Positions 1,415-11,080 of a stretch of DNA of 42,038 nt are shown here, one piece after another; the stretch's first letter is position 1; each line of letters begins with the position of its first letter. Both the position numbers and the translations under genes were made by a program. The DNA comes from Thermoclostridium sp. (GTDB taxonomy: Bacteria > Bacillota > Clostridia > DSM-8532), in assembly GCA_017995215.1 (NCBI GenBank), contig JAGOJH010000016.1, forward strand, positions 1 through 42,038, read 5' to 3'. The notes beneath the pieces were generated by a model that worked only from the letters and a program-made list of their open reading frames with translations, was not told the origin of the DNA and searched no databases.

Positions 1415-3871
1415 TTATATTGCAGGGGTGGATACGGTTTCTGCCTTTTTAAACACAAGCTTGTCATCCTGAAGCGTAATTTTTACCGTATCACCCTCCT
1501 GTATTTTTCCGTCGAGCACCTCTTCGGCCAGTTTGTCTTCCACCATACTCTGGATGGTACGCCGCAGAGGCCTTGCGCCGTAAACCTTGTCATAGCCTTT
1601 CTTTGCGAGGAATTCGGCCACACCCTCCGATGCTTCAAGCGTGATGTTTGTGTTCTTCAGGCGTTTTGACACTTCCTTCAGCATCAGCTGCGCAATTTCA
1701 TTGATATTCTGCTGTGTCAGCGGATGGAAAACAATCAGCTCATCCACGCGGTTAATAAACTCGGGTCGGAAGGCCTTTTTCAGCTCACCCATGACGTTCT
1801 TCTTCATGTCCTCATAATCTTTCGCCTCATTGACAATAGCCGTTGTAAACCCAAGATGCTTCGGTTCAACAATATCCCGGGCACCAATATTGGAGGTCAT
1901 GATGATGACAGTGTTCCTGAAATCAACAATTCTACCGGTGGAATCGGTTAAGCGCCCATCCTCGAGGATTTGCAGAAGCATGTTGAACACATCGGGATGT
2001 GCCTTCTCTATTTCATCAAACAACACCACGGCATAGGGCTTCCTGCGTACCTTTTCACTCAGCTGTCCTCCTTCGTCATAGCCCACATATCCCGGAGGTG
2101 AGCCTACCATGCGGGAAACACTATGCTTTTCCATATATTCGGACATATCGACGCGGATCATGTGGCTTTCATCCCCAAACAGGGCTTCAGCCAGGGCTTT
2201 TGACAGTTCTGTCTTACCAACACCGGTGGGTCCGAGGAAAATGAAAGAGCCCACTGGCCGCTTTGGATCCTTTAACCCGACACGACCGCGACGAATGGCC
2301 TTTGCCACTGCCATCACTGCTTCTTCCTGGCCTACAACCCGCTGGTGCAGGGTAACCTCCATGTTTTTAAGCTTTTCGGTTTCCTCCTGTGCCAGGCGGC
2401 TGACAGGAATACCGGTCCAGGTGGCCACAATGGTGGCAATTTCTTCTTCCGACACCACCTGTGTGTGGGTCTGGTTCTGCATTTTCCACTCTTCTTTTCG
2501 AGCGTTCATTTCTTCCTTGAGTTGGTTTTCCTGATCCCTAAGCGGCGCAGCCTTTTCATACTCCTGGTTGACGATGGCATCTTCCTTCATCTTGTGCAGC
2601 TGCTGGATCTTCTGTTCTAATTCCTTCAGATCGGGCGGGGCCGTATAGCTTTTAAGCCTAACCCTGGAGGAAGCCTCATCGATCAGGTCGATGGCCTTGT
2701 CGGGCAGATGCCTTTCGGTGATATACCTTACAGACAGCTTTACCGAGGCTTCCAAAGCTTTATCGGTGATTTTCACGTTATGATGGGCTTCATACTTGTC
2801 CCGGATCCCTCTAAGAATCTCCATAGCCTCCTCGGGGGTGGGTTCACCGATTTGGATGGGCTGAAACCGCCGCTCCAGTGCGGCATCCTTTTCAATATGC
2901 TTGCGGTATTCGTCCATGGTGGTTGCCCCTATTACCTGTATCTCACCCCTGGCCAGAAGAGGCTTGAGGATGTTGGAAGCATCAATGGCCCCTTCTGCGG
3001 CGCCCGCTCCGACAATGGTATGCAATTCATCGATAAACAGGATCACATTGCCTGCATTGCGGATCTCTTCTATGGATTTTTTCAGCCGATCCTCAAACTC
3101 ACCACGGTATTTCGCTCCGGCGACCATGGAGGAAAGATCCAGCGTTACCACCCTTTTTTCCTTCAAGGTTTCCGGGATGTTTCCCTCAATAATTCTTTGG
3201 GCAAGGCCCTCGCAAATAGCGGTTTTTCCAACACCGGGTTCACCGATCAGGCAGGGGTTGTTTTTGGTTCTGCGGCTGAGGATCTGAATAATCCGTTCAA
3301 TTTCCTTATCCCTGCCAATGACGGGATCAATTTTTCCTTCCCTGGCCATAACAGTAAGGTCGCGTCCAAACTGGTCGAGGGTAGGGGTTTCCGTTTCTTC
3401 CGCCTTGGGTTTACCGGCCGCCACCGCCGTGGGAGTATCCTCCTGCAGCATGGTGATAATGGAATCATAAAGCTTGTGCGTATCTACGCCCATATCCATC
3501 AGGATCTTCACCGCGATGCTTTCGCCTTCTCGTAGAATCCCCAGCATCAGGTGCTCGGTGCCAATATAGTTCTGACCCATACGTCTGGTCTCTGCATAGG
3601 AAAGTTCTATGACTCTTTTGGTTCTGGGTGTGTAACCAACAGTTTGCTGGCTGCCTTCCCCGCGGCCTACGATGGACAAAATGCTTTCAAGCACCTTTTG
3701 TTCGGTTACACCATGGGAAAGAAGCACGCCGGCAGCAATTCCGCTGCCTTCCTTAACCAGCCCCCACAGCAGGTGTTCAGTGCCTATATAATTGTGCCCC
3801 AGCGCCTGGGAACACTCTTTTGCCAGGTTTAACGCCTGGGCTGCTTTTTGTGTAAATTTTCCGTAGATCAT
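1415..3871 (-). CDS. clpC: ATP-dependent Clp protease ATPase subunit ClpC
   Basis: HSP100 unfoldase, 818 residues, the usual ClpC length. In order: a double N-domain (about 1-145, with the paired NYIGTEHL repeats at 27 and 101), first AAA+ module (Walker A GEPGVGKT at 210-217, Walker [10 protein letters not shown] at 276-284), a coiled-coil middle domain with a UVR-like segment (about 415-470), and a second AAA+ module (Walker A GPTGVGKT at 547-554, VVLFDE at 615-620). It should partner with ClpP and the McsB/McsA adaptors to degrade arginine-phosphorylated or aggregated proteins. Last gene of the ctsR operon, 11 bases after mcsB, and so probably CtsR-controlled. Confidence 0.97.
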
Positions 3872-3882
3872 TCCTTATCACC

Positions 3883-4923
3883 TCAATTGTTCCTTTGTTT
3901 GTTCATCATTTCCCTGACCAGCTGCGCACGGCAGGTATCCCGTTCATCGGAGCCCAATATTCTGCCCTTTGTCTTCTGCAGGCTGCCGGGTTGTACCAAT
4001 AGCATCATTTGATTGATATCCGTAATGTCAATATCCTCAAGGATCCCCATGTCCACCCCCAGCCTCAAATCTGAAAGGCGCTTCAGGGTCTCACCTGTAT
4101 CCATGATTCTCGCGTTCTTCAAAATTCCAAAGGATCTGAAAATCCGGTCTTCCAGCTTATATCTGTTTTGTTTCAGGAGCTCCTGCCGCAAAGCTCTCTC
4201 CTGATCGATGATTTGCTGCGCGATGTTGTGCATGCTCAGGATGATATCCTGTTCGCTTTTTCCAAGGGTAATCTGGTTTGAAAACTGAAATACGTTTCCT
4301 GAGGCCTGGGTATTTTCACCATAAAGCCCTCTTACAGCCATTCCAAGCTTCCCCATAGCCTCCAGCACAGGCTTGATATAGCCTGTCATTGCAAGGGCTG
4401 GAAGATGCATCATCACTGATACACGAATGGCTGTGCCGATATTCGTAGGACAACTGGTGAGGTAGCCGATGTTTTCATCCCAAGCAAAATCAATGGTTTC
4501 AGATAACAGGTTATCCAGGCTGTCACACACCTCCCAGGCCTTGGTCAGCTGCATGCCCGAAGCCAGGCACTGGATTCTGAGATGATCCTCTTCATTGATC
4601 ATGATCGATATCTGCTCGTCCTGGCTGAGGATAAGCCCAATCAGCCGTTTGGATTCCACCAGTTCCTTGCTGACGATATGCTTTTCAACCAGCACGGCTT
4701 TTTCAATGATGTCCAGACTGGTTATATCCACATAACGAAATATGCCCGCCATGCTGTCACTGCCTGAAAAAATGGCTTTTTGGGTTTCCTGTATAATTTT
4801 TTGCTGGTGCTCGGCAGTGCTTTTATGCGGAAAGGGATACTCTCTGAAGTTTCTGGCCAGCCTTACCCTGCTTGACAGCACCACATCCGAATCCGGTCCT
4901 TTATCAATATACCATTTATTCAT
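3883..4923 (-). CDS. mcsB: Protein-arginine kinase McsB
   Basis: Phosphagen-kinase-fold enzyme, 346 residues. In Firmicutes it phosphorylates arginines on proteins, marking them for ClpCP. Visible family elements are DVVLSSRVRLARNFREYPFP near the N-terminus, INEEDHLRIQ, and the active-site loop CPTNIGTAIRVSVMMHLPAL. The frame extends to a GTG at 4935, but the ATG at 4923 is preferred: GGTGAT precedes it and the protein then begins MNKWYIDKG, in line with homologues. Third gene of the ctsR operon. No arginine-kinase substrate can be read from the sequence. Confidence 0.95.
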   Translation of the reverse strand: MNKWYIDKGPDSDVVLSSRVRLARNFREYPFPHKSTAEHQQKIIQETQKAIFSGSDSMAGIFRYVDITSLDIIEKAVLVEKHIVSKELVESKRLIGLILSQDEQISIMINEEDHLRIQCLASGMQLTKAWEVCDSLDNLLSETIDFAWDENIGYLTSCPTNIGTAIRVSVMMHLPALAMTGYIKPVLEAMGKLGMAVRGLYGENTQASGNVFQFSNQITLGKSEQDIILSMHNIAQQIIDQERALRQELLKQNRYKLEDRIFRSFGILKNARIMDTGETLKRLSDLRLGVDMGILEDIDITDINQMMLLVQPGSLQKTKGRILGSDERDTCRAQLVREMMNKQRNN

Positions 4924-4996
4924 TACATCACCCACTTGAAGGAAAGCATTCTGTGTACTTCCTGTTAAGGTTTAAACCCTCGCAGAAACACTGAAG

Positions 4997-5512
4997 CTAT
5001 GTTCTAACGCTTCCTGAATCACTTTTATTTTTTTCAGCCTCTTTAATCTGATCCCGAATGACGGCTGCCTGCTCGTAATTTTCTTCATCGATGCATTTTT
5101 GAAGCTCCTGCTTTAATGCAAGCAGGTTTCGGGCAGGCTGAAGCTTTGCAGACAGCTTTGGGGGTACCTTCCCATGGTGTTTGACATTGCCGTGAATGCG
5201 CTTGAGCAAGGTTTGGATGCTTTCCCCAAAGGCTGTATAGCATTCCGCGCAGCCAAGCAGCCCTGTTTTCTGAAACTCTCCGGCTGTCATTGCGCAGGAA
5301 GGGCATTGAACAGAGGGTACAGGATCTTCCTGTATTTCTTTTGAAGCTTCCTGCCCCAGGATCCCTGAAAGCAGCTTGTGCAGATTAATTTTAATCTCAT
5401 TGTTTTTTCGGGCACATGCCTCGCAAACATAAGTCTCTACCTTCTGTCCATTGATTATTCTTGTATAATGTACGGTTGCCTGCCTTTGCCCGCACAGCCG
5501 GCATATCAGCAT
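4997..5512 (-). CDS. mcsA: Activator of protein-arginine kinase McsA
   Basis: 171-residue zinc-finger protein that activates McsB and assists ClpC. Four CxxC pairs are present: C4/C7, C30/C33, C70/C73 and C88/C91, giving two four-cysteine zinc sites. A UVR motif (about 132-165, with EENYEQAAVIRDQIKEAE) closes the protein, matching the UVR-like segment in ClpC. The start is ATG at 5512, 13 bases after ctsR. Its place between ctsR and mcsB is the conserved Firmicute order. Confidence 0.94.
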   Translation of the reverse strand: MLICRLCGQRQATVHYTRIINGQKVETYVCEACARKNNEIKINLHKLLSGILGQEASKEIQEDPVPSVQCPSCAMTAGEFQKTGLLGCAECYTAFGESIQTLLKRIHGNVKHHGKVPPKLSAKLQPARNLLALKQELQKCIDEENYEQAAVIRDQIKEAEKNKSDSGSVRT

Positions 5513-5525
5513 ATTTTAGCCCTCC

Positions 5526-5984
5526 TTAAATGACAAGACTCATCAGCATGTTTTTCAGAATAGTCATTCTGATCTCGTCGCGCAGTTCGGGCGAAGCAGC
5601 CATAAGTGCCTTATCAGATGTAGCTGCCTTCATAAGCCCGGCCTCCTGCTCACTGATAACATCATAGTCCACAAAATTTTGAATGAAGATCTCACAGGTG
5701 TGCTGTGATAGTTTGTCACCAATAGAGGTGATGATATGCATCAGATATTCGCCCACCGAGCCCGCATTCAGCCGTTTTATGCTGATATAGCCTCCGCCGC
5801 CCCTTCGTGATTCCACATAATAGCCCTTGTCTGTAGAAAAGCGCGTGCTGATAACATAGTTGATCTGTGAAGGAACGCAATTGAAACGGCTTGCCAGCTC
5901 ATTGCGCTGAATTTCCACCGCGCCATCCATATCTTCAATCATCTCTTTGATAAAGGATTCAATAATATCGCTTAGTCTTGCCAC
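5526..5984 (-). CDS. ctsR: Transcriptional repressor CtsR
   Basis: Class III heat-shock repressor, 152 residues. It has an N-terminal winged helix-turn-helix (about 25-70, ASRFNCVPSQINYVISTRF) and the glycine-rich wing RGGGGY (61-66), the known heat-sensing and McsB-targeted part of CtsR. The C-terminal helical domain (about 80-152) forms the dimer. The start is GTG at 5984, preceded by AAGGTGAT, and MARLSDIIE aligns with homologues. First gene of ctsR-mcsA-mcsB-clpC. A matching operator lies 20 bases upstream, so the operon should be self-repressed. Confidence 0.96.
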   Translation of the reverse strand: MARLSDIIESFIKEMIEDMDGAVEIQRNELASRFNCVPSQINYVISTRFSTDKGYYVESRRGGGGYISIKRLNAGSVGEYLMHIITSIGDKLSQHTCEIFIQNFVDYDVISEQEAGLMKAATSDKALMAASPELRDEIRMTILKNMLMSLVI

Positions 5985-8313: not shown

Positions 8314-8604
8314 TATATATAGAGATATTTTTTTAACTTTTTTGTGCATAATCATTCAAATTCTTCGTGCAACTTACGAATACCACTGCTCATAATGTTA
8401 TCACACGTATGGGGATTAATTCAATCCATTTTGCTTTTAGACCTGCAAATACATGGTACGGGTATGTTACAGACAAAACCTTTCTTCTTGTTGTGCCGCC
8501 TCTATATCCTATTAATTTTATTGCCCGGCAATTGTACTTTTAATAGATTGACAGCATATAATAAGAATAATTGTTTTTTTCTGCCTCTGCACTTTTCTAT
8601 ATTA
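8314..8604. other. Divergent intergenic region
   Basis: This A+T-rich stretch between the two divergent genes holds no convincing gene. Near its right end TTGTAC (about 8533) and TATAAT (about 8558) lie 19 bases apart on the plus strand and could serve the nucleotidyltransferase gene. I see nothing else. Confidence 0.35.
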
Positions 8605-8614
8605 GGGGGTTCTT

Positions 8615-11080
8615 TTGAAAGCTGTGATTCTTGCGGGAGGAAAGGGGACACGCCTGCGCCCTGTTACCTGTGAGCTGCCAAAACCCATGGTTCCAGTTCT
8701 AAACGTCCCATTAATGGAGCACCTTATCCTGCTGTTGAAAAAGCATGGAATCCAGGATATCGGTGTTACGCTGATGTATCTGCCCCACAAGATCAGGGCT
8801 TATTTTGGGGACGGTTCAAAATGGGGAGTCCGGCTGTCCTATTTTGTCGAAGAAAACCCTTGCGGCACAGCAGGAAGCCTTTTGAGTGCGGCTGCTTTCC
8901 TGAATGAACCGTTTCTGGTGTTAAGCGGAGATTGCATCACAGACATCAACCTCACCGATGCCATTGAATTTCACTATCGCAAACGGACGCTGGCGACCCT
9001 CGTTCTAACCTGCTCCGGTAACCCCAGAGATTATGGGATCGTCATCACGGATCGTGACGGCCATATCGTCAATTTCCTTGAAAAGCCTTCGCTCTGTGAG
9101 GTTTTCAGCGATGTGGTGAACACCGGCATATATATGCTGGAGCCGGATGTACTGAACTATATCGAGCCCGATCATCCCTGTGACTTCAGCCGCGAGCTTT
9201 TCCCAAAGCTTCTGGCATCCGGGCAGCGGCTTTCGGGCTATGCTGCATCCGGATACTGGTCGGATGTTGGCTCTGTTGAAAATTATTTGAACACGCACAG
9301 GGATATCTTTGATAAAAAAGCAGATCTTTTCCCATACAACCAAAGCGGTCGACAGGGTGTATTTACCGGTAAATCCACCATTATAGAGCCCACCGCGATG
9401 ATTCAGGGGCCCTGCGTTATCGGAAACAATTGTTACATCGGGCACCGAACCATGATCGACAGTTATAGTGTCATCGGAAACAACTGCATCATTGAAGACC
9501 GGGCTTTCGTGAAAAGAAGCATCCTGCACAGCAATGTCACCGTTGGTTCAGGCTGTGAAATCAGAGAAAGCATTCTCGGAAACCGGGTACACCTGATGCC
9601 ATATGTATCCTGTCTTGAAAACACGGTAATTGGTGAAGAAAGCATCATTCATGAGCGCAGCATCATAAAACCGGGTGTACGGATTTGGCCATCGAAAACC
9701 GTTGAACCCCTTTCGATAGTCGACAGGAGCATCATCCATTCCACCCGATACCACTCATCGTTATTTCACAATGGCAGAATTATGGGGATGATCAATGCGG
9801 ATATCACACCCGAACTTGCCTCCCGGCTTGGCTCGGCATTTGGTTCTGTTCTTGGCGTGGGTAAAAGGGTGATCGTAGCTTCAGATGCAACTGGGGTTCA
9901 TTATTTGTTTGAATATGCATTTATTTCCGGTTTGATCTCAACGGGGGTTCAGGTTTTCAGCCTTCATGGCGTATCTGTCCCCGTGGCACGGATGGCCGTT
10001 CATGACCTGAACCTTTCAGGGGGAATTCATATTCACAGTGAACCGTATTCTTCGGAAAAGCTTGAAATTAATTTTTTGGATGAAACCGGTGCAAATCTGG
10101 ATAGCATTCTTGAGAAAACTATTGAAGCCATTTATTACAAGGAAGATTTTGCACGCTGTCGCGCAGGTGCTATTCCAAGCCTTGTGGACATGAACGATTT
10201 TCGGGAAACCTATATTCGTTCTCTGGGCTCAAGGATCAACACAGCCCCGATTCATGCAAGTCCTCCTGTTCTGTTCATCATGAGCGACAGCGAACGAATG
10301 TTGTCCTTCGTGCGAGCCGTGTTCGAAAAGCTTTGTATTCCCATTGCCGGCGAGATGCTGATTGATCGGCTTGATCCCGATAGAAGACGGAGTATTGAAC
10401 ATTGCCTTCATGCCGATCTGACAGCTTTTATTGACAGCAGCGGAGAGCAGTTGCAGCTGATGGATTCCTGCGGAAGGGTTCCCGATGAGAACCAGCTTTT
10501 TCTGATGCGCGCCTATATGCTGCTGAAAAACAACCCGGGGGTGAATATTGCGGCCCCATTGAACATGACCTGCAGCCTCGAACGAATGGCACGCAGATAC
10601 GGAGGTTCGGTGAAACGCACAAAAATCTCCGGATATGACCTTGTCAGGGAATTGCTGAAGAAAAACAGTTTCGATCAATCGGTCGATCAGTACCTTTTAT
10701 ACCATGATGCCATTGCTTCCCTGGCAAAAACAATTGAGTTTCTGTGCATTAACGATATAGCCCTTGACGATCTCATCCGGTTAACTCCCTCCTGTAATAT
10801 CAGGCACTCGTCCTTTTTATGCCCTTTTGAATCTATCGGGAAGGTAATGCGTACGCTTCATTTGGAAAATAACCGGCAGTTGCTTCTTGGGGGTATCCGG
10901 GTTCAGCGGAAAAGTTCCTGGGCATTGATCATCCCCGATTCTGAAAAACCAAAAATTCATCTTTATGCAGAAGGCCGTTCCAGTGGAGAAGCCCGGCGGT
11001 TGCTCCAGGAGTATTCCGAAAGAATTACTTCACTGTTGCCGCAGACGAAGCATGAAGATAGTTCTTTTGCTTTAAGCTGA
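8615..11080 (+). CDS. Sugar nucleotidyltransferase fused to a degenerate phosphohexomutase
   Basis: 821 residues in three parts. Residues 1-235 are a GDP-mannose/glucose-1-phosphate-type nucleotidyltransferase with LAGGKGTRLRP (6-16), the LPKPMVPV motif and SGDCITDIN (104-112). About 250-375 is a left-handed beta-helix of hexapeptide repeats. About 390-821 resembles a phosphomannomutase, but the catalytic serine loop (TASHNP in active enzymes) reads GGIHIHSEP (469-477) and the metal loop (DGDADR) reads DSSGEQ (607-612). The mutase half is therefore probably not catalytic. The start is TTG at 8615 behind AGGGGG. Likely role: NDP-sugar supply for envelope glycans, or its sensing; the substrate is not readable. 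Fusions of this layout are known in Firmicutes. Confidence 0.85.
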   Translation: MKAVILAGGKGTRLRPVTCELPKPMVPVLNVPLMEHLILLLKKHGIQDIGVTLMYLPHKIRAYFGDGSKWGVRLSYFVEENPCGTAGSLLSAAAFLNEPFLVLSGDCITDINLTDAIEFHYRKRTLATLVLTCSGNPRDYGIVITDRDGHIVNFLEKPSLCEVFSDVVNTGIYMLEPDVLNYIEPDHPCDFSRELFPKLLASGQRLSGYAASGYWSDVGSVENYLNTHRDIFDKKADLFPYNQSGRQGVFTGKSTIIEPTAMIQGPCVIGNNCYIGHRTMIDSYSVIGNNCIIEDRAFVKRSILHSNVTVGSGCEIRESILGNRVHLMPYVSCLENTVIGEESIIHERSIIKPGVRIWPSKTVEPLSIVDRSIIHSTRYHSSLFHNGRIMGMINADITPELASRLGSAFGSVLGVGKRVIVASDATGVHYLFEYAFISGLISTGVQVFSLHGVSVPVARMAVHDLNLSGGIHIHSEPYSSEKLEINFLDETGANLDSILEKTIEAIYYKEDFARCRAGAIPSLVDMNDFRETYIRSLGSRINTAPIHASPPVLFIMSDSERMLSFVRAVFEKLCIPIAGEMLIDRLDPDRRRSIEHCLHADLTAFIDSSGEQLQLMDSCGRVPDENQLFLMRAYMLLKNNPGVNIAAPLNMTCSLERMARRYGGSVKRTKISGYDLVRELLKKNSFDQSVDQYLLYHDAIASLAKTIEFLCINDIALDDLIRLTPSCNIRHSSFLCPFESIGKVMRTLHLENNRQLLLGGIRVQRKSSWALIIPDSEKPKIHLYAEGRSSGEARRLLQEYSERITSLLPQTKHEDSSFALS

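Follow-up and report, generated by a model that had tools for sequence, protein, structure and literature searches.

A gene of the bacterium Thermoclostridium sp., found in the window (the whole stretch of DNA that was analysed, 42,038 nucleotides in length), encodes a protein that is best explained, on sequence grounds, as an NDP-sugar pyrophosphorylase (a nucleotidyltransferase with a β-helix) fused to a predicted pseudomutase. Its C-terminal half was aligned to five standalone mutases, and all four catalytic mutase loops, i.e., the phosphoserine, metal, sugar and phosphate loops, are gone from it, from which we infer that this half cannot interconvert sugar phosphates. It most probably serves the pyrophosphorylase to which it is joined as a regulatory or docking domain.

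Architecture of the Fusion Protein

The open reading frame at positions 8,615–11,080 of the forward strand begins with TTG, comprises 821 codons and is followed by a stop codon. The initial annotation of this DNA described a fusion in which a mutase-like half is kept in frame, and the reading frame, the Pfam matches and the fold predicted by AlphaFold2 for residues 382–808 agree with that description (Table 1). Pfam places NTP_transferase at residues 2–231 (E 2e-53), hexapeptide (LbH) repeats from about residue 246 onward and PGM_PMM_I at residues 388–513 (E 3e-20). The AlphaFold2 model of the fusion (52 sequences) has a mean pLDDT of 84.6, and with a pTM of 0.59 the placement of the domains relative to each other is uncertain. 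Within the model, residues 382–808 match the phosphoglucomutase of T. kodakarensis (9du5) with Z 39.8 and an rmsd of 2.6 Å over 417 aligned residues, and residues 1–372 match the GDP-mannose pyrophosphorylase VTC1 (7x8j) with Z 40.2 and an rmsd of 2.9 over 347. Structure prediction, which had been proposed as a check, thus gives a whole mutase fold for the C-terminal half, with the four domains that characterize the α-D-phosphohexomutase superfamily, so that this half is regarded as homologous to mutases and not as a chance match. A phmmer search of PDB sequences matched the two halves to different proteins, and no chain spanned both among the 60 of 114 chains listed.

The N-terminal half has the features of NDP-sugar pyrophosphorylases, namely the NTP_transferase domain with an intact GG.G.R....PK signature and the hexapeptide helix, and residues G8, G9, G11, R13, K23, D106, E156, K157 and P158 are invariant in 52 aligned sequences. 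The window protein scores below the cut-offs of the NCBIfam models for mannose-1-phosphate guanylyltransferase (NF052502; 264.8 bits, cut-off 440) and glucose-1-phosphate thymidylyltransferase (TIGR01208; 171.4 bits, cut-off 320.25). Several genomes of the window's own family carry a transferase frame of 348–366 aa that has no mutase half (L016, L019, L020, L021) and is 36–41% identical to the N-terminal half of the fusion; one genome (G012) has both the fusion and such a short frame.

Table 1. Features of the fusion gene and its product, in window coordinates
Feature	Residues	Position	Strand	Basis or remark
Likely ribosome-binding site AGGGGG		8604..8609	+	5 nt 5′ of the TTG start, read in the sequence
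Whole fusion ORF, 821 aa and stop		8615..11080	+	ORF list
Nucleotidyltransferase domain	2–231	8618..9307	+	Pfam PF00483; catalytic signature intact (GGKGTRLRP...PKPM, GDCITD, EKP)
Left-handed β-helix (hexapeptide)	~246–365	9350..9709	+	Pfam PF25084, PF00132; strand pattern of the model
Predicted pseudomutase (phosphohexomutase fold without catalytic loops)	381–808	9755..11038	+	Pfam, AlphaFold2 model, structure match, alignment, motif search
Former phosphoserine loop and preceding strand, GGIHIHSEPYS	469–479	10019..10051	+	H472 conserved in the family; Glu476 in the catalytic Ser column
Family-specific motif EDFAR (family (R/K)EDF.R)	510–514	10142..10156	+	E510 118/130, R514 118/130
Former metal loop DSSGEQ	607–612	10433..10450	+	Conserved Glu611 in place of the third catalytic Asp
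Deletion site of the sugar-binding loop GEQSGH	~684–690	10664..10684	+	Alignment; low model confidence there
Family-specific motif CPFESIGKVMR (family CPWE.KG.VMR)	736–746	10820..10852	+	C736 118, G742 127, R746 126 of 130
Former phosphate-binding loop, LIIPDSEKP vs RPSGTEP	771–779	10925..10951	+	D775 conserved in the family

Loss of the Catalytic Loops

Two loops, those for the phosphoserine and the metal, had been reported as lost. Both are replaced, and the statement proved too modest, for the sugar and phosphate loops are lost as well. The column of the phosphoserine loop, [TS]ASHNP in the consensus, holds HSEPYS (residues 474–479) in the window protein; the earlier assignment of GGIHIHSEP (469–477) to this place was right about the loss and imprecise about the column, since GGIHI forms the strand before the loop. 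Alignment to the five standalone mutases bears out DSSGEQ as standing in place of the metal loop DGD.DR. The sugar loop, GE.SGH, is deleted, and the phosphate loop R.SGTEP gives way to IIPDSEKP (772–779).

It had been stated from the outset that a better alignment might bring the loops back. They stayed absent in three MAFFT alignments (78, 101 and 158 rows), and in an alignment-free search none of the four catalytic motifs (TASHNP, DGD.DR, GE.SG, R.SG[TN]-type) was found in any of 143 unique fused ORFs, defined as profile matches of 690 aa or more with a transferase motif in the first 200 residues; restoration of the loops by alignment is thereby ruled out. Degeneration of the window copy alone, or an assembly error, is likewise ruled out, as the fusion from the same genus (G001/L006, 64% identity) and distant fusions are also without the loops.

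The other 50 profile-matched ORFs divide into 29 with at least the metal-loop motif and 21 with none of the four; these 21 comprise fragments, fusions that had failed the length or motif filter, and a stand-alone protein, L103 (G040:C8). L103 is a pseudomutase of 407 aa that has none of the motifs and no transferase half in frame. With a looser transferase motif, accepted anywhere in the ORF, the count rose to 146, among them a single ORF (L109, a frame of 1118 aa) with all four mutase motifs; that it represents a fusion with an active mutase half is ruled out, since Pfam finds mutase domains only. No fusion with a still-active mutase half was found among the 143 fused ORFs, a non-exhaustive set obtained with profiles built from degenerate members.

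Distribution of the Family

Such fusions had been described as known in Firmicutes, which is true as far as it goes and too narrow, for relatives occur in many phyla. The C-half profile, derived from fusions, matches 131 of the 299 genomes of a phylum sample at E 1e-45 or better by hand count, and most of the matches listed fall in open frames some 800 aa long. A pattern scan of named genomes, whose pattern included the degenerate phosphate loop and so biased the set to degenerate members, yielded at least 588 relatives in at least 596 pattern matches. Going by record titles, the best 80 of these include members from Bacillota, Armatimonadota, Eremiobacterota, Chloroflexi/Ktedonobacteria, Cyanobacteria/Sericytochromatia, Riflebacteria/Ozemobacter, Methylomirabilota, KSB1 and Poribacteria. 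Plasmid records add fusions from Streptomyces, Nonomuraea and Sulfuricurvum, and two annotated relatives on Streptomyces plasmids are also devoid of the catalytic mutase loops. The annotation of these proteins follows the transferase half, e.g., sugar phosphate nucleotidyltransferase or mannose-1-phosphate guanyltransferase.

Residues Kept, Lost and Gained

Residue counts were made on 153 fusions, reduced to 130 non-redundant ones (<90% identity), at columns invariant in five active standalone mutases. Residues of the fold are kept (F384 128/128, G391 129/129, Y533 130/130, D698 128/130, E786 123/130). Most catalytic residues are gone: R11 is found in 2/129 fusions, R50 in 1/130, H101 in 2/120, P103 in 1/127 and K110 in 25/130, while in the phosphate loop R411 is kept in 0/130 and S413 in 2/130, with Asp at the latter position in 117. 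The metal-loop D243 remains in 8/129 and is Glu in 115. The invariant Arg, Lys and Ser of the active set are presumably phosphate or substrate ligands, as in mutase structures. The suggestion that the half senses a sugar phosphate in the old pocket therefore fares poorly: with the phosphate-binding residues gone such a ligand is doubtful, and it is likelier that the half binds another ligand or a partner protein.

Some catalytic positions persist in part. The catalytic Ser column is Ser in 58/128 fusions (Glu476 in the window), 84/129 retain the first metal Asp (Asp607 in the window) and 63/129 the loop Arg R244 (Gln612 in the window). Given the first two counts, fusions may still bind a metal or carry a phosphate on this Ser.

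The conservation analysis that had been called for shows that the fusions have conserved residues of their own, i.e., in window numbering, R459 (125/130), H472 (102/130), R514 (118/130), E611 (115/129), R746 (126/130) and D775 (117/130); position 474 is Arg or Lys in most members. One might read the newly conserved His, Glu, Asp and Arg as the basis of another enzymatic activity, gained by the C-terminal half and not dependent on the phosphoserine and Asp triad. The conserved polar residues H472, E611 and D775, which lie within the old loop sites or next to them, would suit such a function, as would the acidic residues that some members keep at metal positions (DDDGER in L109, ESDGER in several). 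Yet H472 is missing in 28/130 fusions, including all three Actinomycetota members examined, and the sugar loop too has been lost in the window lineage and in most fusions of the 78-row alignment, which makes this alternative improbable.

Purifying Selection on the Mutase-Like Half

For the mutase-like half, dN/dS (NG86) in the three unsaturated pairs is 0.155 (L007/L008), 0.123 (L007/L009) and 0.165 (L008/L009), and the transferase half of the same pairs gives 0.112, 0.078 and 0.098. In the other 18 pairs, among them every pair with the window, synonymous sites are saturated or almost so, and these pairs are little informative. In the close relatives L007–L009 the mutase-like half is thus under purifying selection. 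A decaying vestige that is merely carried along would agree with the somewhat faster evolution of the C-terminal half and with the absence, in the window lineage, of the sugar loop, which survives in altered form in other members. This explanation is very improbable and is largely refuted by dN/dS values of 0.12–0.17, by full-length, in-frame retention across many phyla and by near-invariant new residues. The kept fold, the new conserved residues and the purifying selection together indicate a pseudomutase that is being conserved and is not in decay. The idea of the initial annotation that a non-catalytic job has been retained gains support from the same evidence, joined by the recurrence of the same losses across many phyla.

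Gene Neighborhood

Neighbors were collected at 80 named loci as genes of at least 170 aa lying on the same strand as the fusion and within two genes of it; 126 of 129 were scanned, three being left out, and the counts are raw. Among them were GH77 (6 proteins), GH57 (5), CBM48/α-amylase (3) and six GT4 proteins that also match a starch-synthase domain. A CBM48/α-amylase gene, a GH77 gene and the fusion stand in a row on one strand at L117, L119 (Eremiobacterota) and L124. At L117 the CBM48/α-amylase gene scores as GlgX above the NCBIfam TIGR02100 cut-off, and at L114 (Eremiobacterota) the GH77 gene 5′ of the fusion scores as MalQ, above that of TIGR00217. In Bacillota MAGs a GT4 gene and a GH57 gene that has a branching-enzyme C domain (BE_C) lie 5′ of the fusion; at L105 the three follow one another in this order, and the GT4 and GH57 genes score below the NCBIfam glgA and branching-enzyme cut-offs. 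The fusion thus lies in α-glucan operons (glgX-malQ-fusion; GT4-GH57-fusion) in some lineages. Such neighbors are present at a minority of loci and none adjoins the window gene, which is flanked by EF-G (divergent) and hisC; a GH15-like gene, below its NCBIfam cut-off, is located 6 kb away on the opposite strand. Other lineages have unrelated recurring neighbors, i.e., DNA polymerase I and radical SAM.

Beyond these genes, the minus strand of the window carries at 1,415–5,984 clpC-like, mcsB, mcsA-like and ctsR genes, followed by the EF-G gene that diverges from the fusion, and on a Streptomyces plasmid (L190, 2,649–7,398) genes for an AGE-family epimerase and a STAS-domain protein precede the fusion. 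No riboswitch or other RNA matched Rfam at the gathering threshold within the window.

In the window genome (G000) no GlmM match above the TIGR01455 cut-off was found, the best active-mutase match being 5.1e-42. The same-genus genome G001 has a standalone GlmM-like ORF (L065) with all four loops, and the window assembly is 91.84% complete; for these two reasons the missing GlmM is probably an assembly gap, and the possibility that the fusion replaces a lost housekeeping mutase was set aside.

Relation to Known Systems

With archaeal-type phosphoglucomutase/phosphomannomutase (9du5, 1wqa) the fusion has in common the four-domain fold and its structural residues, and it differs from them in the replacement or deletion of the phosphoserine, metal, sugar and phosphate loops. 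VTC1, GMPPB and the 8x7s protein (tlr0611) have the same N-terminal fold and catalytic signature (33–35% identity to the 8x7s chains); unlike the fusion, they are chains of about 350–400 aa without the mutase-like half. Regulation of an active enzyme by a pyrophosphorylase homologue that is itself non-catalytic is known from GMPPA with GMPPB, KONJAC with VTC1, and eIF2B. As in the fusion, a degenerate enzyme of the sugar-nucleotide pathway is kept there beside an active one; the degenerate part, however, is a transferase homologue on a separate chain, whereas here it is a mutase homologue on the same chain.

The gene sll1496 presumably belongs to the fusion family. A frameshift in it is listed for one substrain (PMC10068330), and three phosphohexomutase genes are named for Synechocystis (PMC10010611).

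A 2018 paper on S. coelicolor presents SCO1388 as having nucleotidyltransferase and ManB-like domains, as the fusion has, and calls it apparently bifunctional from these domains (PMC5982138); its membership in the family would follow from the described architecture. GDP-mannose pyrophosphorylase activity is assigned there to two genes other than SCO1388, and a strain depleted of SCO3039 and SCO4238 was partly phage resistant, whereas single insertion mutants, sco1388 included, stayed sensitive (PMC5982138). In a further study, insertions in SCO1388 lowered actinorhodin production, yet the gene was grouped with downmodulators in a list (PMC6585502). Were the fusions true bifunctional ManC–ManB enzymes, as this description and the domain annotation suggest, both active sites should be complete; the transferase signature is, but the mutase loops are absent in the window protein and in 143/143 fused ORFs, and the phage sensitivity of the sco1388 mutant points the same way, so that we consider such bifunctionality barely credible. 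The part of PMC11046441 that was searched does not mention phosphomannomutase, and none of the 12 passages listed from it, of 27, deals with the fusion. In the literature searched (titles and the beginnings of abstracts, with most subscription journals outside), no paper was found to call the mutase half degenerate.

Possible Role of the Pseudomutase

That the pseudomutase half is a regulatory domain is a reading which, judged from sequence and modeled structure, we regard as about evenly balanced in probability. The half would bind a metabolite at its remodelled cleft, and the binding would tune the N-terminal transferase. Candidate binding residues are R459, H472, Arg/Lys at 474, R514, E611, R746 and D775, which may line the cleft, and in at least some lineages the setting would be α-glucan or hexose-phosphate metabolism. 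With the phosphate-binding residues gone, the regulatory ligand would have to be new, and a purely intramolecular regulator does not fit the stand-alone pseudomutase L103. For the multi-phylum family as a whole it may tentatively be proposed that mutase chemistry was lost anciently, probably once, and that the new conserved site senses a metabolite other than a sugar bisphosphate, which would couple sugar-nucleotide synthesis to the α-glucan or hexose-phosphate state.

The pseudomutase could also be a docking or assembly module that binds a protein and not a metabolite, recruiting an active mutase or forming an oligomer and so passing sugar 1-phosphate to the transferase. Many positions newly conserved in the family are found away from the former loops (R459, the 736–746 motif). 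In a search with an active-mutase profile, for which the best-scoring matches were listed, 298 of the 299 phylum-sample genomes reached at least E 1e-25, in most cases by a wide margin, so that a partner would usually be available; a few of the weaker matches could stem from the pseudomutase itself. Mutase-motif ORFs occur in the flanks of 5/84 loci from named records (L109, L153, L155, L172, L190), and at L153 (3,538–4,962) and L155 (9,393–10,817) an active-looking phosphomutase with TASHNP and DGDGDR lies directly 3′ of the fusion on the same strand. Five loci of 84, some of them with short flanks, are nevertheless few, and docking is considered somewhat unlikely.

If the mutase half is dead throughout the family, it is an error to enter it in a pathway reconstruction as a phosphomannomutase or phosphoglucomutase. 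The new conserved residues are concrete targets for mutation, and why an inactive mutase has been kept on a pyrophosphorylase becomes a directly testable question.
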